Notes under the pieces: generated by a model
The model's database searches: none
What the model was told of the DNA's origin: nothing
What the model saw: the letters and a program-made list of their open reading frames with translations, nothing else
From: Bacteroidaceae bacterium
GTDB taxonomy: Bacteria > Bacteroidota > Bacteroidia > Bacteroidales > Bacteroidaceae
Length of the DNA: 50,452 nucleotides
Direction of reading: 5' to 3'
Assembly: GCA_017547385.1 (NCBI GenBank)
Contig: JAFYPU010000026.1
Span: 1 to 50,452, forward strand
Position numbers and translations under genes: made by a program
Part shown: positions 41,318 through 50,325 of the stretch, one piece after another
Layout: each line of letters opens with the position of its first letter
Position numbering within the stretch: position 1 is the first letter of the stretch

Positions 41318-41633
41318 CCCATGATGTCAGCAATTCGCCCTTCGCAAGAAATTTCATGGCAAAATATGGCTGAAAAATGGCAGGAAAATCGCACCATCTG
41401 CCATCCTACAATCCTTTTGCACTCAAACCATTACGACAGAAAATGGTAGTAGGGCAGCAAAATCGAAAAAATCCGAGTGTGCGCACGCATGCACGCGATA
41501 AAAATAAGATAAGGAAAAACCAGTATTTAAGGAGAGCGTCTCTGTTTTTTGATGGACAAAACTTGACCAAAGGATTCTTGATTCTATACTATTTTTAATA
41601 CCTTCGCGTTAGAATTAAATATCTTTGAGAATA
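41318..41633. other. Junction between core genome and AT-rich island
   Basis: About 316 bp without a gene. It holds a weak hairpin (ATGGCAG 41377-41383 with CTGCCAT 41398-41404), a GC-rich palindromic patch near 41480-41500 (GTGCGCAC), and then a marked rise in A+T from about 41510. I see no tRNA, integrase or attachment-site duplication. Confidence 0.5.
41620..41627 (+). promoter_or_regulatory. Promoter -7 box for the island regulator
   Basis: TATCTTTG ends only 7 bp before the ATG at 41634. Transcription from it would give a leaderless or nearly leaderless mRNA. A weaker box-like TAATACCTTCG is at 41597-41606. Confidence 0.45.
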
Positions 41634-41834
41634 ATGGCAAATCTAAATCGTATAAAAGTAGTACTTGTTGAACAGCAAAAGACAGGTAAATGGCTGGCAG
41701 AACAAATGGGGAAATCCGCTTGCACTGTCAGCAAATGGTGTAGCAACTCCAGTCAGCCGGATTTGGCTACTTTAGACAAAATTGCCGCGCTTTTGAATGT
41801 GGATATTCGAGAACTTATTGTGCCTTCGAAGTAA
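41634..41834 (+). CDS. Small XRE-type helix-turn-helix regulator
   Basis: 66 aa, essentially one HTH domain: KTGKWLAEQMGKSACTVSKW forms the two DNA-binding helices, followed by QPDLATLDKIAALLNVDIREL, typical of Cro/C1-type domains. Size and position fit a controller (C) protein or antitoxin-like regulator for the genes that follow after 17 bp. No direct evidence links it to control of the restriction genes, but C proteins commonly precede the endonuclease gene. Confidence 0.85.
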   Translation: MANLNRIKVVLVEQQKTGKWLAEQMGKSACTVSKWCSNSSQPDLATLDKIAALLNVDIRELIVPSK

Positions 41835-41851
41835 ATTCTATCGCAAAAGAA

Positions 41852-42574
41852 ATGACGCAAGAGAATAAAGACATACAGCCACAGGTTGAACCGTATATCG
41901 TGAAGTCGCACGATGTACATATTGATGCGGACTATGCGGATTGGATAGCGGACATTAAGAGTCGCTATCGTTCTGCACAGGTGAAGGCTGCAGTTAAAGT
42001 GAATGCAGAGAAACTTCTGTTCAACTGGCAACTTGGTCGCGACTTGGTACAGAAGAAAGCCGAAGAACGTTGGGGTGCTGGAGTTGTTGAACAAGTTAGT
42101 CTTGATTTGAATCGTGAATTTCCTGACAGCACGAACTTTTCAGTACGCAATTTGTGGTATATGAAACAGTGGTATATGTTCTATGCCGAGAATCCGGAAA
42201 AACTGAAACAACTTGTTTCAGTAATGTTGCCAGACGATAATCATGATAAGATAATCAAACAAATAGAAGATGGAGAGAAACTGAAACAGTCTGTTTCAGA
42301 ATTTCCACTGCTTTTTGCTTGCGTACCCTGGGGACACCATGTCCGTATCGTTCAGCATTCGAAAACGATTGGTTCGAATATGAACAGGGCTGATGTTCAA
42401 TGGTCATTCAAAGGCATTTCCACTCCGATGGGTGTGGCCACGTATAATAACATCAGAATCAAAGATGCCCTCCCAAGTCAAGAGCAATTGGCTGAGCGTG
42501 TACGCCTCTTGCAAAAGGAGTTGCAGGAGACAAAACGTTTAATGGGCAAGGTGGACAATATTGAAAACTTATAA
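41852..42574 (+). CDS. DUF1016 (YhcG-type) protein with internal deletion of the nuclease core
   Basis: 240 aa. Residues about 28-170 are a normal DUF1016 N-terminal domain (GRDLVQKKAEERWGAGVVEQ..., NLWYMKQWYMFY, FACVPWGHHVRI). Full-length relatives then have about 150 residues of a PD-(D/E)XK nuclease (GFAFVGRQ, FYIDLLFYH, VIELK). Here residue 170 passes directly to DVQWSFKGISTPMGVATY (181-198), which corresponds to the last segment of that domain. The frame is kept, so a protein is probably made but cannot cut. It may survive as a DNA- or partner-binding remnant or be a decaying gene. Confidence 0.82.
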   Translation: MTQENKDIQPQVEPYIVKSHDVHIDADYADWIADIKSRYRSAQVKAAVKVNAEKLLFNWQLGRDLVQKKAEERWGAGVVEQVSLDLNREFPDSTNFSVRNLWYMKQWYMFYAENPEKLKQLVSVMLPDDNHDKIIKQIEDGEKLKQSVSEFPLLFACVPWGHHVRIVQHSKTIGSNMNRADVQWSFKGISTPMGVATYNNIRIKDALPSQEQLAERVRLLQKELQETKRLMGKVDNIENL

Positions 42575-42618
42575 GCAACATCGGCATAATCATTTAAAAC
42601 ATTTAAAATAGATTTGTA

Positions 42619-43536
42619 ATGGATATAAATAAAAATTTAAGATATAATAAAGCTGAACTTTTAGCTTATTTTCGAAGTCGTGCTAATGAAATTCTGAGTG
42701 ATTTAGCACTTGAATATTCTGCAGCCGACTACAAAAAGAAAGCATCTGCTTTAAATAAGGCCATTATCCAAAGCCGCGACAATCTTTTGGAAATTCTAAA
42801 TGAAAAGGCAAGGACAGAAAATTGGACGAACTCCGAGACCTTGGAATGCGTCTTAATGATTACATATACAAATGATGTGGTCATGTTGGAATCCAGAAAT
42901 TCTGTTTGGGAATACGATTATATGGCATTTTCTCGTAGAGTTGGAGAGCTGTGGGAACCGTTCTGTAAACTATGTTTTAAATATCCTTCTACTAGAATTT
43001 CAGCATTTGTGCCACCATTGTTCTCAGAAGTCAAGGAAAGCCTAACTACTGAAATTACCACATACATTGATGCGTTAAAGATCAAAGTTAAGGAGAAAGA
43101 ACAACTAAAACGTTACTATGATAAAGTATGGAATCTCGTCACATCTGGTGAGATTCAATTGGAATGTGACCTACATTTTACTGATGGTCAGACAAAGTAC
43201 ATTGTCGATTTCAAAAGCGGTTTCGGTTCTAACGAAAAAGGGAACACAAACAGATTGCTACTTGTAGGCAGTATTTATCAAAATATAGAAACGGAAAATT
43301 ACAAATGCTTGATATTTGTACGTTCAACGGATAACAACCATTATCTTGCCACTCTTCAAAATTCTGGAATATGGGAGACCTCATGCGGTACCGATACTTA
43401 TTCTAAGATTCATCATTTTACTGGTTTTGATATTCGTAATTGGATTGATCAGAACATAGATTGGATGAATGATTTCGCCCCACAAATGAGGGATGCTGTG
43501 ACAAATAATGAACTTCAAAATTATCTTATCTGGTAA
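42619..43536 (+). CDS. Putative type II restriction endonuclease (PD-(D/E)XK)
   Basis: 305 aa, no signal peptide. The C-terminal half carries a plausible PD-(D/E)XK core: Glu182 and Asp184 in LECDLHF, then the Asp197-Phe-Lys199 triplet in YIVDFKSGFGSNEKGN, followed by the helix NRLLLVGSIYQ and strand CLIFVRS. The N-terminal 150 residues are helical and charged with no named family. It precedes an adenine methyltransferase with 4 bp between stop and start, the usual arrangement of an R-M pair. Endonuclease function is inferred from motif plus context, not from a family match. Confidence 0.7.
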   Translation: MDINKNLRYNKAELLAYFRSRANEILSDLALEYSAADYKKKASALNKAIIQSRDNLLEILNEKARTENWTNSETLECVLMITYTNDVVMLESRNSVWEYDYMAFSRRVGELWEPFCKLCFKYPSTRISAFVPPLFSEVKESLTTEITTYIDALKIKVKEKEQLKRYYDKVWNLVTSGEIQLECDLHFTDGQTKYIVDFKSGFGSNEKGNTNRLLLVGSIYQNIETENYKCLIFVRSTDNNHYLATLQNSGIWETSCGTDTYSKIHHFTGFDIRNWIDQNIDWMNDFAPQMRDAVTNNELQNYLIW

Positions 43537-43540
43537 TAAT

Positions 43541-45547
43541 ATGAACGAAGCATTGGTATATCAGGCACATTACACAAAGTCAGATCCAATCCTTAACTAT
43601 ATGACGGGGATGCTTGAATTTCGTCCACATGATTCTATTTTAGAGCCTTGTGGAGGAGATGGAGTATTCGTTGACAAGATTTTAGAGAAGGTGCCGAATG
43701 CAAACATCAGCGTATTTGAGTTAAATCCCCAAGCTGTTATAGGACTCAAAAACAAATATAATGGGGAAGCAAATATTCATATAAAAGAAACAGATACACT
43801 ATTAGATGACAGCATTACATCTTGTAGTGCCAAGTATGATAAAATTATTGGTAATCCTCCTTATGGAGCACGTAACAACGAGAAGAAGAAAGACCTCCTT
43901 AACAAATTGTACGCTGATTTGTACACAAAAGAAAGTTACACTCTTTTTCTCTATGCTTGCACACGCTGCCTTAAAGAGAATGGAGAACTAAGTTTCATCA
44001 TACCTGATACCTTCTTGTCGCTTCATAGGCATCTCGCCATTCGAAAGTATTTGCTAACAAACACCAAGATAAAAGAATTGATATTATTCCCATCTTCGTT
44101 TTTCCCGGGAATAAATTTTGGTTACGCAAATCTGTGCATCATTACGTTGAAAAAATCTTCAAATGTGGCTCAAAATCTGCGTAATAAAATCTCTATCAGA
44201 ACAAACTTTAAGACGGTAGAGGAATTAGAATATGATGATAGCGGTACGAAAAAAAATATCTCACAGAAAGAAGTCGTCGAAAGTGTTGGTTCAGCATTCA
44301 TGTTTAATTCAACCGACAAAATTGTAAAGTTAATAAATGATGTTTCTATTCAGAAGATAGGCGACATTGCAAATTGTGTGACGGGATTTTATTCAGGTAA
44401 CGACAAAGATTATCTGCATCCAGTTAGTCCAGAGATAAAGAATGCAAAGAAGTACATTTGTGCGAATTCCGAAAGTATCCATACATCTTCTTTGACAGAC
44501 AAAGAGAAAGGTTGTGGTATTGCAACAACTGATTGTTTGGTTCCTATAGTTAAAGGTGGTAACATTGAGTATGTCAAGCCTAACCATTGGTTTATGGATT
44601 GGTCAACAAAAGCTATCCAAGAGTATAAATCGAGCAAAAAATGTAGGTTCCAAAATTCCGACTATTACTTTAAGAACGGCATTGGCATTCCAATGATACG
44701 TTCGTCTAAACTTACAGGTTCATTAATAGAAGGTAGGCTATTTGACCAATCCATAGTGGGTGTTTTTCCAAAAGATGATAAGTGGATTCTTTACCTTCTT
44801 GGATTTTTCAACTCGGCTGTATGCACAGAGTTGATTAATGCTATCAATCCATCAACAAATAATTCGGCTAATTACATCAAAAAGATTCCTTTCATTGTAC
44901 CTAGTGATGAATCAAAGAGCCATGTTGAAGAATTGGTAGGCGAGATTGTATCACGATTAAAAGCTGGTGACGAACAAATTGAACGTCAAAAAGCAGAGTT
45001 AGACGAAGTTTTTGCAAACTTGTATTTCCAGAGAGAAGGTATCAGTCAGACAACTTCTAAAGAAATTAGTCCCAAGCAACTCAACTTCCTCGACCTCTTC
45101 GACCAATACGAGCTTGAGCCAATCACTCAGAATTGCGTGGTTCGTGATGATATTGAAATCGAGTATGGAAAGAAGAAGAGTCAATTGCTTATCGACCTTA
45201 CAAAGAACCTCCTTATCTGCAATGTTAAGAAGGATAATTTGGAGCAGTATCTCGATGGTTCAGCCAAGATTTACTATACTGGCAAGAAGTTCCCGTCAAC
45301 AGTTGCGCTCTACAAGCTCTACTACTTCATGCCGTACCTATCTGGAAAAGGTATTCGTGATCTCTACTATATCAAGATTGCTCGACTAGGTTATCGCAAA
45401 GAAGGTCAAGAAAATGAAGACAAGAATGACCTCCGGTTAGTTTTCGAGATTGAGCGTGTCGGCCAGTTATTCGATGAATACAAGAAGGTAAAACTCGAAA
45501 TCTGGCGTACGTTTACGGATACGACGCTTGATAAAATTCTATGTTAA
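43541..45547 (+). CDS. Eco57I/TaqI-like N6-adenine DNA methyltransferase
   Basis: 668 aa. Gamma-class order: SAM motif I LEPCGGDG at residues 34-41, acidic FEL near 59-61, and catalytic NPPY at 105-108 (IIGNPPYGARNN). A roughly 350-residue C-terminal part looks like a TaqI-type target-recognition domain (LYLLGFFNSAVCTELINAI, NYIKKIPFIVPSD) with a coiled-coil connector. No nuclease motif is fused. The ATG at 43541 is used; an ATG at 43508 overlaps the endonuclease gene. The stop is followed in the same frame by more protein-like sequence (see 45548-45643). Confidence 0.9.
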   Translation: MNEALVYQAHYTKSDPILNYMTGMLEFRPHDSILEPCGGDGVFVDKILEKVPNANISVFELNPQAVIGLKNKYNGEANIHIKETDTLLDDSITSCSAKYDKIIGNPPYGARNNEKKKDLLNKLYADLYTKESYTLFLYACTRCLKENGELSFIIPDTFLSLHRHLAIRKYLLTNTKIKELILFPSSFFPGINFGYANLCIITLKKSSNVAQNLRNKISIRTNFKTVEELEYDDSGTKKNISQKEVVESVGSAFMFNSTDKIVKLINDVSIQKIGDIANCVTGFYSGNDKDYLHPVSPEIKNAKKYICANSESIHTSSLTDKEKGCGIATTDCLVPIVKGGNIEYVKPNHWFMDWSTKAIQEYKSSKKCRFQNSDYYFKNGIGIPMIRSSKLTGSLIEGRLFDQSIVGVFPKDDKWILYLLGFFNSAVCTELINAINPSTNNSANYIKKIPFIVPSDESKSHVEELVGEIVSRLKAGDEQIERQKAELDEVFANLYFQREGISQTTSKEISPKQLNFLDLFDQYELEPITQNCVVRDDIEIEYGKKKSQLLIDLTKNLLICNVKKDNLEQYLDGSAKIYYTGKKFPSTVALYKLYYFMPYLSGKGIRDLYYIKIARLGYRKEGQENEDKNDLRLVFEIERVGQLFDEYKKVKLEIWRTFTDTTLDKILC

Positions 45548-45643
45548 TACAAGGATACCCTCAATACGTATTGGGGAAGAGAACGGATGGCATTCATGCT
45601 GGTCAAGTTGAATAGCCTGGAGAATGTTGTTGATAGAGTTTGA
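45548..45643 (+). pseudogene. Protein-like remnant in frame after the methyltransferase stop
   Basis: Directly after the TAA, the same frame reads YKDTLNTYWGRERMAFMLV and continues KLNSLENVVDRV before TGA (45641-45643). The residue pattern is protein-like, while the stretch has no own start except an internal ATG at 45586. I cannot name its source. It could be the lost C-terminus of the methyltransferase, or the tail of a deleted neighbour. Confidence 0.4.
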
Positions 45644-45661
45644 TTTTTTAGAAAAGTTATT

Positions 45662-48600
45662 ATGTTACAGCCATTATTACCAGTTAAACTAAATAAGGAC
45701 GATGCGTCATATCAGACAGTGGAAGAACTGGCTGAAGTGTTAAGACATGCTATTGATAATGGGGACATAAGAAATGTTGCCTTAACAGGTCCTTATGGCT
45801 CAGGAAAAAGTTCTATCATACAAACATTGATGGGCGAATATGGCGAGTCAGAAGGATTTCATTATCTTCCTATCTCCTTGGCAACACTACAAGCAGACGA
45901 GGAAGAAGGCGATAATGACAATGATAATAAAAAAGACAAACAAGATGAGAAGTGGACAGAAACACTAAATAGAAAAATTGAGTATAGCATTCTTCAGCAG
46001 TTAATCTACAGAGAAAAAGCTAAAACTGTTCCAAATTCAAGATTTAGAAGAATTGTGCATATAGAGCATTTTGAATTGATTCAGTATGCATTAGGATGTC
46101 TTGGGTTTTTATTGGCATTCCTCATTGTTTTTGAACCATCGTATGCAAAAGTAGATACGATATATGGTTTCTTGAATTTTGGGAAATGGAATATCATATT
46201 TGATATAATCTCCTCTTTATATCTTTTATATGCACTCTACAAATTATGCACTTATTTTATTAAATCGTATGCAAATTCTAAACTAAATAAACTAAACCTT
46301 AAAGATGGTGATATTGAAATGAAAGAGGAAAACTCTATTTTCAATAAGCACCTAGATGAAATTTTATACTTCTTTCAAGTAACACAATATAATGTTGTTG
46401 TCATAGAAGATTTGGATCGATTTGAAACAGAAAAAATCTATTTGAAATTGAGGGAATTGTGCCAACTAGTAAACGAATCAAAAATCGTTGGCCGTCATAT
46501 TGTATTCCTTTATGCGATAAAAGATGATGTTTTTGTAGATGAAGCCAGGACGAAATTCTTCGATTATATCTCGACTGTTATTCCTGTTATTAATCCATCC
46601 AATTCAAAAGCCAAACTAAAGGAGGCTTTGAAAGACAGAGGATTCAATGATAACGAAATACCGGATGAGGATTTGTCTGAGATAGCTTTCTTCATTCAAG
46701 ACATGCGTATTCTTACAAACATTGCTAATGAGTATAGCCAATACCGTTGTAAGTTGTATAATCCGGATAAAAACTATCTAAGTAGGACAAAACTACTTGC
46801 CATGATTGTTTACAAGAACTATTTTCCAAAAGACTTTTCCCAACTACATAAACGAGATGGGTTGGTATACTCTTGCCTTGTTTCTAAAAACAAATTTATT
46901 GATGAAGCTCAAGAAACGCTTGATGTCAAGAAAGTAAAGTTGGAGGAGAAGAAGAAACTTGTTGACGAGAACAATCATCTAAAAGAGACTGATTTGCGCT
47001 ATCTATTTTTGCTAGAATTACGTGAAAGCGTAAATGGATTCATGCAAACAATAACGATAAATAATCAAGATTACACTCTGAAGCAAATAGCACAAAATAG
47101 AAACTTATTTAATGGTTTATATAATCTGACATCTATAAATTACCAGTATAATGCCCCTTTTTATGGGCGACAAAATCAATCTGCTCAAATTAATGTAAAT
47201 GCTATCAATAACAAAATGCAATATGAGAGCAGATTGGCTGCTATAAAAACGACTCAAAAAGATCTTCAAAAAGAAGAAAAAGAACTTAAAAAGGAAGAGC
47301 TCAAAATACAATCGTTAAAACTGAATGTACTTATAAAAAAGTACAATTTAGGCAACACAGAATTATATAGAAACATGCATCTTTCTCCATTGATGGATGT
47401 GTTTATTCGTCGTGGATATATTGATGAAGATTATTATGACTATATTTCGTATTTTTATCCAGGAATGGTTTCTTTAGCTGATAGGGATCTCTTATTATCT
47501 ATGAAGCGAGAAATCAAACAAGCATATACCTATCATATTGATAAGATTGAGAATTTTGTAAAGGAATTGAAAGATTATATGTTTGAAAGTGATGCCATTC
47601 TGAACAACGACCTACTTGATTATGCTGCAAGGAAAAAGGCAAGTTCGTTATTTTTGCAAATAATGAGAAGAACTGAAAAGGATGACGCTCCACTAGATTT
47701 TTTGGCACAGTATTATCAATTAGGTAAAAGACAGAAGGAAGTATTCACAGAGTTCGTAAATTGGAACAACGAACTCTCATGGCAAATGATATCGAACCAC
47801 ACAAATAACGATGAACAACAAGTACTCAGAGAAGCATGGCTTAAATATGCCGATAACACCACATCGGAGCAAGAAACATGGTTAAGTAGCAATTATGCAT
47901 TCTTGGCTAATAGAGTTGACGTTATTGGTATGGAACAATGTAAGAAATTATCCGACGGCTGTATGTTCACAGATCTGAATAACGATAACAACAATCTTTT
48001 GGATTATGTTGTAGAACAATGGCGTTATGTTATTAACGTAGGCAATTTGTGCCTAATAATAAATCATCTTAGAAGCGAATCTGTAGCCTCACCTGAAAAC
48101 TTGAACTTAACTAGAATTACAGAAACGAGCAATGATGAATTTGAGAACTATGTAAAAGATGATTTCAGTGAAGCCTTTGGGTGTTTCTCTTTAACAACTA
48201 AGGATGAATCCGTTGAAAGTATTATTTATATACTGAATTCAGAAGATGTCGTTGCTGACAAAAAAATAACATATTTAATCGGTCAAAAAGAACTTATCTC
48301 TTCTTTTGATGGAATTAATGAGACATTTTGGGAAATCGCCATCAAATCATTTGTTATACAACCAACTTGGAATAATGTTGATGTATACTATAGCAATAAA
48401 GGTTCACTGACTGATGATTTGATAAAATTCATAGAACATTATCACTGCCATTTAGAAGAAAAATGTCAAGATGATATCGCTTCAAAACAAATTCTTTTTG
48501 AAGGACTACTATGTTCTAATGTATTGAACATAGAGTCATTCCGTTCTATTTGCTTAGCTTTTGATTTGCAGTTCGACAATAATAAATCATTAGGGAGTGT

Positions 48601-49207
48601 CGAACGAGAAAGACTGGAGATACTTCTTGAAAATGAAAAGATTGCTTTTACAAAAGCAAACACCTCTATTTTGATGAATACCAATATCTATTCTGAATAC
48701 TTGGTACATTATTCACAAGAGTTCATAGATAATTTAGATGAATCATATCAATTAGATGAAGATACTGTATTCACGCTTTTCTATAGTAATAGATTTACGA
48801 TACAAGAAAAAAGACGAATCATTGATGTGACAAATGAAGACATTTTATTATCGTCTTCTCTTGCTGATAAGGTTATTGAGCTTTTGTTGGATTCAAATGA
48901 TATATCTCTTGACGGGCACATCTTAATAGGATTGCTTCAATCTTCTACAAATCTTCACAACAAATTATTACTTGTTTGTCAAATGCTAAAAGTAAATCAA
49001 TATTCTATGGAAGATATTTCATCGTTACTAGCAACCTTGGGAGGCAAGTATGTCGAGATAGCTGAGCGTAAAAAACGTCCACTGATAGACAAAAATGAAG
49101 AAAATGTTGCATTACTGAATCAGTTACAAAGACTACATTTTATCTCGACGACATCTCAAGAAGATGATGGAATACGAGTTAATCCGACAAGAAAGCAAAA
49201 TTCATAA
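45662..49207 (+). CDS. Large membrane P-loop NTPase, YobI/KAP-like
   Basis: 1181 aa. Walker A is GPYGSGKSS at residues 43-51 and Walker B VVVIEDLDRF at 245-254. Two hydrophobic segments (about 137-157 and 178-200) lie between them, the membrane-inserted layout of KAP/YobI-type NTPases. A sensor-like KDDVFVDEA and a helical region follow, then a long coiled coil (about 515-560, KKEELKIQSLKL) and about 600 residues of helical C-terminus without recognised domain. Acidic residues cluster at 79-96. It starts 114 bp after the methyltransferase. Relatives occur in conflict and defence loci; here it is a candidate sensor or effector beside the R-M pair. Confidence 0.8.
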   Translation: MLQPLLPVKLNKDDASYQTVEELAEVLRHAIDNGDIRNVALTGPYGSGKSSIIQTLMGEYGESEGFHYLPISLATLQADEEEGDNDNDNKKDKQDEKWTETLNRKIEYSILQQLIYREKAKTVPNSRFRRIVHIEHFELIQYALGCLGFLLAFLIVFEPSYAKVDTIYGFLNFGKWNIIFDIISSLYLLYALYKLCTYFIKSYANSKLNKLNLKDGDIEMKEENSIFNKHLDEILYFFQVTQYNVVVIEDLDRFETEKIYLKLRELCQLVNESKIVGRHIVFLYAIKDDVFVDEARTKFFDYISTVIPVINPSNSKAKLKEALKDRGFNDNEIPDEDLSEIAFFIQDMRILTNIANEYSQYRCKLYNPDKNYLSRTKLLAMIVYKNYFPKDFSQLHKRDGLVYSCLVSKNKFIDEAQETLDVKKVKLEEKKKLVDENNHLKETDLRYLFLLELRESVNGFMQTITINNQDYTLKQIAQNRNLFNGLYNLTSINYQYNAPFYGRQNQSAQINVNAINNKMQYESRLAAIKTTQKDLQKEEKELKKEELKIQSLKLNVLIKKYNLGNTELYRNMHLSPLMDVFIRRGYIDEDYYDYISYFYPGMVSLADRDLLLSMKREIKQAYTYHIDKIENFVKELKDYMFESDAILNNDLLDYAARKKASSLFLQIMRRTEKDDAPLDFLAQYYQLGKRQKEVFTEFVNWNNELSWQMISNHTNNDEQQVLREAWLKYADNTTSEQETWLSSNYAFLANRVDVIGMEQCKKLSDGCMFTDLNNDNNNLLDYVVEQWRYVINVGNLCLIINHLRSESVASPENLNLTRITETSNDEFENYVKDDFSEAFGCFSLTTKDESVESIIYILNSEDVVADKKITYLIGQKELISSFDGINETFWEIAIKSFVIQPTWNNVDVYYSNKGSLTDDLIKFIEHYHCHLEEKCQDDIASKQILFEGLLCSNVLNIESFRSICLAFDLQFDNNKSLGSVERERLEILLENEKIAFTKANTSILMNTNIYSEYLVHYSQEFIDNLDESYQLDEDTVFTLFYSNRFTIQEKRRIIDVTNEDILLSSSLADKVIELLLDSNDISLDGHILIGLLQSSTNLHNKLLLVCQMLKVNQYSMEDISSLLATLGGKYVEIAERKKRPLIDKNEENVALLNQLQRLHFISTTSQEDDGIRVNPTRKQNS

Positions 49208-49218
49208 AAAGGGGTAAC

Positions 49219-49383
49219 ATGCAAGATATAAACAACATCCCAGAACTTCATTCTCCGTTCAATCAATTGCAAGAGGTTGATGCCGATGGCAAAGAATAGT
49301 GGAACTCGCGTAAATTGGCACGAGTGATGGGCTATGGGAAGTACTGTCTGAAAACAACTAATATTTTAGATACCTTCGAATAA
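49219..49383 (+). pseudogene. dinD fragment (BRO/DinD-like N-terminus), decayed
   Basis: From ATG 49219 the frame reads SPFNQLQEVDADGKE, then a TAG stop at 49297-49299, then WNSRKLARVMGYGKYCLKT and a divergent tail to TAA at 49381. This matches the opening of DNA-damage-inducible protein D (FENI..VDENG.E[YF]WSAR.LAK.LGY..Y), where the TAG replaces the conserved aromatic residue. The remaining roughly 220 residues are gone. It lies 11 bp after the NTPase gene. Confidence 0.72.
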
Positions 49384-49440
49384 ATGAATGATTGTAATTT
49401 CGAGAATACTACTCATGATTCATATATAAAGCAATAATAT

Positions 49441-50325
49441 ATGGCAAATCGAAAAGAAATAAGAAATAGTACAGCTGAGTTTCTAATCTTTCAAATTGAG
49501 GGGAAGGAACAAGGTGTTGAGGTGTTCTACAAAGATAAAACAGTGTGGTGTACACAGAAAGCTATGGGTATGCTGTTTAATTGCTCTACAGATAACATCA
49601 GTTTTCATTTGAGAAATATTTATGATAGTGGAGAACTGGAAGAAAAAGCAACTACCGAGAAAATCTCGGTAGTTCGCCAAGAAGGAACCAGAGAGGTAAA
49701 CCGCTCGCTCCTTTTTTACAATCTCGATACTGTTATTAGCGTAGGCTATCGTGTGAACAGCATTCGTGCTACTCAGTTTCGTCAATGGGCGACAAGCGTA
49801 TTGCGAGAGTTTGCTATACGTGGATATGTTCTGGATAAGAAAAGAATGGAGAATGGTTCGTTCCTTGGCGAAGATTATTTTGAGCATCTGTTGGCTGAGA
49901 TACGGGAGATTCGACTATCGGAACGTCGATTCTACCAAAAACTGACAGATATCTATGCCACTGCAGTTGACTACAATCGGGATGCACCGACCACACGATT
50001 ATTCTTCAAGATGATGCAGAACAAGATGCACTATGCCGTTCACGGACGTACAGCCGCAGAACTGATTGTAAAACGAGCTGATGCAGAACAAGAGCACATG
50101 GGGTTGACTTCGTGGGAGAATGCGCCCGATGGCAAAATCGTAAAGACAGACGTGGTTATTGCTAAAAACTATCTCAAAGAAGCAGAACTAGCCGACATGG
50201 GACAGTTGGTGAATGGTGTACTTGAATTGGCTGAAAGAATGGCAAAACGACATATCCCTATGACTATGGAAGACTGGGCAAAGCGGATAGATACCATTTT
50301 GACTGCTGGGGGGGACTATCCATAA
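49441..50325 (+). CDS. RhuM-family protein, C-terminally short
   Basis: 294 aa, cytosolic. The RhuM pattern is clear: GVEVFYKDKTVWCTQKAMGMLFNCS, LLFYNLDTVISVGYRVNS, FRQWATSVLREFAIRGYVLDKKR, then the Doc/Fic-like second half HYAVHGRTAAELIVKRADAE and MGLTSWENA. It stops at DTILTAGGDYP. Most relatives carry about 40 more residues. The stop follows a run of seven G (50308-50314), but neither alternative frame restores a longer C-terminus. Function is unsettled; these genes are common in genomic islands and beside type I R-M systems. Confidence 0.85.
   Translation: MANRKEIRNSTAEFLIFQIEGKEQGVEVFYKDKTVWCTQKAMGMLFNCSTDNISFHLRNIYDSGELEEKATTEKISVVRQEGTREVNRSLLFYNLDTVISVGYRVNSIRATQFRQWATSVLREFAIRGYVLDKKRMENGSFLGEDYFEHLLAEIREIRLSERRFYQKLTDIYATAVDYNRDAPTTRLFFKMMQNKMHYAVHGRTAAELIVKRADAEQEHMGLTSWENAPDGKIVKTDVVIAKNYLKEAELADMGQLVNGVLELAERMAKRHIPMTMEDWAKRIDTILTAGGDYP

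Follow-up and report, generated by a model that had tools for sequence, protein, structure and literature searches.

A type II restriction-modification pair in front of a Tmn homologue, likely in the place of an LlaJI/McrBC-like operon, in a Bacteroidaceae bacterium

The window considered here is the whole 50,452-nucleotide stretch (1-50452) of contig JAFYPU010000026.1 from a Bacteroidaceae bacterium (GCA_017547385.1, a 2.35-Mb draft assembly, 86.5% complete), and its last part carries a defence island that the window end cuts, the right edge lying beyond view. The core of the island consists of the genes for a type II restriction endonuclease and an N6-adenine methyltransferase, which make up a restriction-modification (R-M) pair, followed by tmn, the gene of a large membrane NTPase homologous to the anti-phage protein Tmn; between the pair and tmn lies the remnant of another nuclease gene (Table 1). 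All island open reading frames (ORFs) are on the plus strand, and an ORF call bore out the frames, order and gaps listed in a preliminary description of this DNA, the gaps being 17, 44, 4 (or -29), 114 and 233 bp from the helix-turn-helix (HTH) gene through the NTPase gene to the RhuM gene. The same description had named a putative R-M pair, a KAP/YobI-like membrane NTPase and a shift in composition against the preceding 41 kb, all of which proved to be real. Guanine-plus-cytosine (GC) content, 52.1% over positions 1-41300, drops at about 41.6 kb, and amounts to 35.2% in the nuclease gene, 37.4% in the methyltransferase gene and 32.5% in the NTPase gene.

Table 1. Coordinates of the island features, given as positions of the window
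Feature	Position	Strand	Match or basis
Cro/C1-type HTH gene, front of the run	41625-41834 (or ATG at 41634)	+	HTH_3 2.4e-8
DUF1016/YhcG-like remnant	41852-42574	+	DUF1016_N 2.9e-23
Type II restriction endonuclease, putatively PD-(D/E)XK from its motif	42619-43536	+	PADLOC REase_II 1e-86, full length
Eco57I-family N6-adenine methyltransferase, NPPY motif	43541-45547 (alternative start 43508)	+	Eco57I 9.7e-20, N6_Mtase 1.5e-12
Scar: last 31 codons and stop of a McrC-like (DUF2357/PDDEXK_7) nuclease	45548-45643	+	Alignment to L002 and L003
Tmn homologue, YobI/KAP membrane NTPase, 1181 amino acids, intact frame	45662-49207	+	
dinD-like N-terminal remnant, in-frame stop	49219-49383	+	
RhuM-family gene	49441-50325	+	Virulence_RhuM 6.9e-96, profile 1-216 of 252

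The NTPase matches the PADLOC Tmn profile (PDLC02220) with an E value of 9.8e-79, residues 4-1179 aligning with positions 28-1268 of 1273, and the Pfam family YobI-ATPase at 8.9e-115, so that the earlier statement that no described system has this composition is wrong for this component, whose homology to Tmn is full-length. Shared with Tmn are also the P-loop motifs and two hydrophobic segments inside the NTPase domain, whereas the window copy differs from the E. coli plasmid protein in being only about 22% identical to it and in following an R-M operon. The Walker A (GPYGSGKSS at residue 43) and Walker B (VVVIEDLDRF at residue 245) motifs have core residues that are invariant in 13 aligned sequences, among them the window protein and E. 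coli Tmn, the latter a plasmid protein annotated as 'anti-phage transmembrane ATPase'. A crude hydropathy scan, which is not a membrane predictor, returns only residues 139-157 and 178-196 as hydrophobic 19-mers with a mean hydropathy of at least 1.6, both between Walker A and Walker B. At an E value of 0.1 the only PADLOC matches of the NTPase are Tmn, LeoA and mad8, and a comparison of the Tmn profile with the PDB gives 10 weak matches, nine to GTPases over the P-loop stretch and one to an unrelated protein. An anti-phage role would be expected from this homology. The ratio of nonsynonymous to synonymous substitution rates (dN/dS) is 0.22 and 0.16 against the two closest relatives found, in loci L002 and L003 respectively, and hence indicates purifying selection on the window tmn. 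Only one of 58 genomes of the window's genus, the window's own, has a Tmn match, which points to horizontal gain of the gene. A phage origin was considered and rejected, as 50,697 phage records contain no match at an E value of 1e-5 and viral contigs yielded just six distant relatives, none with an R-M gene annotated in the part of the same-strand run covered.

The nuclease and the methyltransferase are, on sequence grounds, a genuine R-M unit that is independent of Tmn, their activity being predicted. Relatives of the nuclease occur in four other places, and the methyltransferase adjoins in three of them: on a viral contig (L004, nuclease 44% and methyltransferase 42% identical, side by side) and on plasmids of E. 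coli and of Klebsiella (L223, 35% and 32%, side by side; L224, 35%, with the methyltransferase adjoining by annotation), the fourth place being L005. None of the four stretches, of 5.5-12.8 kb, contains a Tmn match, and because these relatives stand side by side without one, the pair is regarded as separate from Tmn. The plasmid comparison covers 2 of 14 records with a nuclease relative, and two phage records with such a relative lie outside it. A DFKSG-(F)-SNEKGNT block of the nuclease, a candidate for the PD-(D/E)XK active site, is conserved in three relatives and shared with L004 and L223; the protein has no Pfam nuclease match, and no relative with a solved structure was found. Translation of the methyltransferase from the ATG at 43541 leaves a gap of 4 bp after the nuclease gene, and the start at 43508 makes the two overlap (-29). 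About 170 C-terminal residues of the methyltransferase (45071-45547) fall outside the alignments to the L004 and L223 relatives. Assignment to BREX was rejected, since the best PglX score of the methyltransferase is 129.6 against a cut-off of 500 and no other BREX family appears among the PADLOC matches listed for six scanned window proteins (25 matches each for the methyltransferase and RhuM).

The closest relatives found of the window Tmn belong to Segatella baroniae B14 (L002, 85%) and to a Prevotellaceae assembly (L003, 78%), and in both an intact McrC-like nuclease gene immediately precedes tmn. In L002 the order, in one direction, is two C5 methyltransferases (two DNA_methylase matches), an AAA_5 McrB-like subunit, the DUF2357/PDDEXK_7 McrC-like nuclease and tmn; in L003 two N6-adenine methyltransferases are followed by the same AAA_5/McrC pair and tmn. 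The window retains the end of such a nuclease gene as a scar, aligned over 30 residues to L002 (87%, residues 784-813 of 813) and L003 (80%, residues 781-810 of 810). DNA similarity between the window and L002 starts at 45550, 3 bp downstream of the methyltransferase stop codon, and continues through tmn to 49292 at 87.5%, while to the left of the R-M pair it returns only at the HTH gene (41595-41705, 70%). As similarity is confined to these two flanks, the R-M core differs between the two loci, and both have the HTH gene upstream and tmn downstream of it. The window R-M pair thus likely occupies, to judge by these alignments, a place once held by an LlaJI/McrBC-like operon, although the direction of the event is not proven: the R-M pair may have been inserted ahead of tmn, or else tmn may have arrived, together with the McrC tail, behind an R-M pair already present. 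L002 and L003 in turn have in common the stretch from the McrB-like AAA domain through McrC and Tmn to just behind tmn, and differ in their methyltransferases and in the N-terminal part of the McrB-like subunit. Their exchange point, at 6244 in L002 and 4396 in L003, lies at the border between that N-terminal part and AAA_5, the AAA domain starting at residues 276 and 217, respectively; judged by this position, the part that likely sets specificity is exchanged along with the methyltransferases. A tyrosine integrase gene on the other side of the R-M/Tmn/RhuM block of L003 (18759-20045) suggests that this block is an integrative element.

Tmn matches are found in 10 of 393 genomes sampled from the order, 14 of 399 from the family and 6 of 395 from the class, and in 11 of 149, 3 of 139 and 3 of 60 in three genus samples, all these samples overlapping. 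A scripted count gave 34 Tmn loci in the window's class, corresponding to 29 clusters at 90% identity (L037, L038, L039, L066, L067 and L068 being one cluster), and R-M genes stand in the operon-like run of tmn in eight of the 29, such a run being defined as an unbroken same-strand series of ORFs of at least 90 amino acids with gaps of at most 400 bp. L227, whose Tmn is 43% identical to the nearest other one, was added by hand after this count, the comparison with annotated R-M proteins having missed its Type ISP neighbour; with it the figure is 9 of 30 clusters, with R-M systems of several types. Left out of the count were two Tmn fragments (G059, with three stops, and G1295:C108, at a contig edge), and L044-L046, L077-L082 and L228-L234 lie outside the class and are uncounted. 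Two other defence-type families served as controls and have R-M genes in the run in none of 37 Abi_2 clusters (40 loci) and none of 34 AbiEii clusters (40 loci), which gives a Fisher p of 6.9e-6 for 9/30 against 0/71, or of 5.8e-5 for the window's family only (6/20 against 0/71, with L002 and L003 assigned to the family by name).

The controls come from the window's family only and the Tmn loci from the whole class; the former were hand-picked among the highest-scoring hits (for Abi_2 40 of the first 42, for AbiEii 40 of the first 54), skipping places at contig edges, second hits per genome and some others. The R-M profiles were seeded from Tmn loci, a possible bias against finding R-M genes in the controls; the same profiles found opposite-strand methyltransferases within 5 kb of 4 of 40 Abi_2 and 5 of 40 AbiEii loci. 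A motif check of 238 operonic control neighbours, counting hits of at least 180 amino acids, gave two matches that look like chance, and no methyltransferase is among the best 25 of 93 Pfam families of the 91 control neighbours scanned (at least 220 amino acids, within three genes, from 47 of the 80 loci).

A likely exchange of the partner is also visible in other pairs of related Tmn genes. The tmn genes of L036 and L038 stand behind unrelated type I systems, and the only DNA homology between the two loci is tmn itself, beginning at its start codon and ending 2 bp after its stop (77% in nucleotides, 76% in amino acids), the HsdR proteins being 27% identical and HsdM 30%, as measured between L036 and L037, the sister locus of L038. 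Likewise, the homology of L042 and L043 is confined to tmn (85.6% in nucleotides, 87% between the Tmn proteins). The R-M partners further include an N6 methyltransferase with HsdS (L029), a type I system with hsdM/hsdS before tmn and hsdR after it (L075), a Type ISP enzyme of 1088 amino acids whose gene directly adjoins tmn (L227), and N6/N4 and C5 methyltransferases with an AAA_5 protein, located behind tmn (L028). In seven of the nine R-M-linked clusters tmn lies behind the R-M genes, the gap in front of it being 114 bp in the window, 17 in L002, 42 in L003, 13 in L036, 53 in L037 and 328 in L029. On a quick Tmn tree of 26 rows with some long branches (23 of the 34 scripted loci and L044-L046, without L227), the R-M label changes at least five times. 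Judged by these arrangements, Tmn behaves as the kept gene of putatively exchangeable restriction operons, mostly behind the R-M genes. The co-occurrence of the NTPase with R-M genes proposed in the preliminary description stands in altered form: it goes beyond the two control genes and involves R-M systems of several other types, and it does not extend to relatives of the window's own R-M pair in the four stretches compared or amount to one fixed system. The outcomes that the description had named as refuting, a lack of co-occurrence and separate insertion boundaries, were thus borne out in part.

Some of these loci have features of their own. L037, L038, L039, L066, L067 and L068 hold a similar module (96.6% nucleotide identity over 8.7 kb between L037 and L038) with a type I hsdR, a tyrosine recombinase (scanned in L037 only) flanked by hsdS-like genes, a GmrSD_N gene and Tmn; the hsdS-like genes around the recombinase are likely phase-variable, and split frames affect Tmn in L068 and GmrSD in L039. 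In L042, Tmn is in one run with AbiL and SIR2/ThsA-like genes, and in L043 (10133-19289) with Septu-like (PDC-M62) and Gabija GajA/GajB genes.

Beyond the window's class the link to R-M genes is occasional. Among ten relatives on plasmids, L232 has type I genes directly in front of the Tmn relative, L044 a cytosine methyltransferase in front of tmn with a 62-aa ORF between them, and L233 a DNA methylase about 2 kb upstream of tmn, beyond other genes. On the Wohlfahrtiimonas plasmid of L232 (1990-7604), the type I hsdR is followed after 8 bp by the YobI-type NTPase, near a blaVEB-1 gene.

The island is, on balance, probably a defence operon with Tmn as an autonomous second line; its intact type II R-M pair, placed between an HTH gene and an intact Tmn homologue, stands where an LlaJI/McrBC-like operon likely once stood. 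The methyltransferase would mark the host DNA and the nuclease would cut phage DNA that lacks the mark. The tmn gene probably shares a transcript with the R-M genes, and its product would be an NTPase anchored in the membrane that works independently against phages which have come through restriction, by modification of their DNA for instance, and that halts the infection at the membrane or during replication. Since Tmn would need no one particular R-M enzyme, a new specificity could be acquired by swapping the R-M core, with Tmn retained as the second line. The function of Tmn here is predicted, and the step from modified DNA to Tmn is one that we infer. E. coli Tmn is described as blocking phages T2, P1, phiVi and phiX by a mechanism that is called unexplored, and phages that escape it have a missense change in the DNA-modification gene nmad5 (PMC11846954); plasmid KAP NTPases have been suggested to exclude phages by altering the membrane (PMC3387028). 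Taken with the exchangeability of the R-M partners, this literature speaks for an autonomous second layer, covering phages missed by restriction, rather than for a guard of a single R-M enzyme. A broader version, possible but more tentative, is that Tmn serves as a plug-in second layer in Bacteroidota, kept behind R-M operons whose core (type I, ISP, type II or LlaJI/McrBC-like) is exchanged wholesale, so that phages that solve restriction by modification or inhibitors meet Tmn; the McrC scar would be a frozen exchange event.

Several results weigh against this interpretation of a second line tied to restriction operons. Without L002 and L003 the excess in the family is smaller (4/18 against 0/71, p 0.0013), and when either strand within 5 kb is considered the contrast weakens to 10/30 against 6/71 (p 0.005). 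As many as 21 of the 30 Tmn clusters have no R-M gene in the run; 11 of these have less than 1.2 kb of contig on one side and 10 do not. The HTH gene of the window has relatives that bring it to only three R-M-linked loci, plus one control locus; 8 of 10 plasmid Tmn relatives have no R-M gene directly beside them, and the E. coli tmn copy (L045) has none listed within 8 kb in a gene table that is incomplete. Sensing of modified DNA by Tmn is, moreover, a weak proposal because deletion of nmad5 gave no escape from Tmn (PMC11846954).

The absence of the link in most Tmn clusters is what would be expected if Tmn and R-M genes just collect in the same islands, without common regulation or benefit; RhuM, Fic and DUF1016 genes collect here too, and the GC content varies among the island genes. 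Such passive clustering nevertheless appears unlikely, if with an appreciable chance, as two other defence-type families show the link in none of 71 clusters against 9 of 30 for Tmn, and the R-M genes and tmn are co-directional with mostly short gaps. Those gaps (13-114 bp in five loci, 328 bp in L029), as well as the position of tmn, with other genes, between hsdS and hsdR of the type I system in L075, would also suit a Tmn that watches the R-M enzyme and fires when a phage protein blocks restriction. A guard of this kind is improbable, however, given that related Tmn genes have different R-M partners, which belong to unrelated types (type I, ISP, type II, McrBC-like), and that E. coli Tmn blocks phages (PMC11846954), the copy examined having no R-M gene listed beside it.

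The exchange pattern itself fits a further proposal, in which the R-M genes are a maintenance module for Tmn and the partner matters only as cassette stabiliser, for any R-M type could then serve; as type I R-M systems are weak addiction modules, this has a slim chance of being correct. The preliminary description had envisaged the endonuclease, methyltransferase and NTPase as one functional system, the NTPase being an effector or sensor of the window's pair. That the three genes are adjacent and co-directional in the window agrees with such a system, but it is mostly refuted and very improbable: the nuclease relatives lack a Tmn match in all four other places, three of them with the methyltransferase, close Tmn relatives adjoin other R-M systems, and the scar places a separate insertion boundary, at 45547/45550, between the methyltransferase gene and tmn. 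It is because of this boundary and of the absence of Tmn near the nuclease relatives that the three window genes are not regarded as one fixed system. With Tmn as an autonomous second line, the exchange of the R-M partner while Tmn is kept hints that Tmn may contribute something general which no restriction enzyme does by itself. Where related Tmn genes have different R-M partners, they are natural pairs for tests of layered defence, and the island lets an R-M exchange be read from the molecular scar that it left.

Tmn (transmembrane NTPase) was reportedly named by Gao et al. in 2020, and Wu et al. (2024) are said to describe its synergy with Gabija, Septu and PrrC. The likeness to the present loci lies in the pairing of Tmn with another nuclease-type defence, the run of L043 holding Tmn beside Gabija and Septu-like genes; R-M systems as exchangeable Tmn partners are, to our knowledge, no part of that work. 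PrrC watches EcoprrI, and the pair resembles the present loci in that a second defence gene rides with or inside an R-M operon, whereas the window Tmn is a membrane NTPase without a PrrC match in PADLOC and its R-M partners differ between relatives. The layout in front of Tmn in L002 is that of LlaJI, with two C5 methyltransferases, a McrB-like R1 and a PD-(D/E)XK R2 in one direction; there, the McrB-like subunit alone sets the specificity (PMC1459862). The window differs from LlaJI in retaining only the 31-codon R2 scar, and L003 in having N6-adenine methyltransferases. No description of Tmn behind exchangeable R-M operons was found in titles and abstract openings, most subscription journals being outside the coverage. 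What is new here is how R-M and Tmn are joined, Tmn itself being already described.

The remaining genes of the island have GC contents of 41-43% (HTH gene, DUF1016 remnant and RhuM gene), against 32.5-37.4% in the three core genes, and the island is for that reason itself a patchwork. Relatives of the HTH gene precede the R-M genes in L002 (62% over 66 amino acids) and L036, and none was found in the other Tmn loci, L003 included. A further relative lies near the AbiEii control gene of L205 (9555-9779, 8.4e-26), so that this regulator is not confined to loci with Tmn or R-M genes. Scans for regulatory signals returned numbers near chance for promoters (37 promoter-like sequences against 33.8 expected) and at chance for terminators (5 against 5.0 expected). 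The DUF1016 remnant has no match to the YhcG_C nuclease domain in the Pfam scan, and a full-length DUF1016 relative with YhcG_C lies behind Tmn in L227. Behind tmn, the short frame labelled dinD in the preliminary description, a putative dinD remnant, has a similar short frame as counterpart in both L002 and L003. The RhuM protein of the window is C-terminally shorter than the 335-aa copy of L003, and a run of seven G at 50308-50314 directly precedes the early stop of its frame, which may reflect a true frameshift or a sequencing slip.

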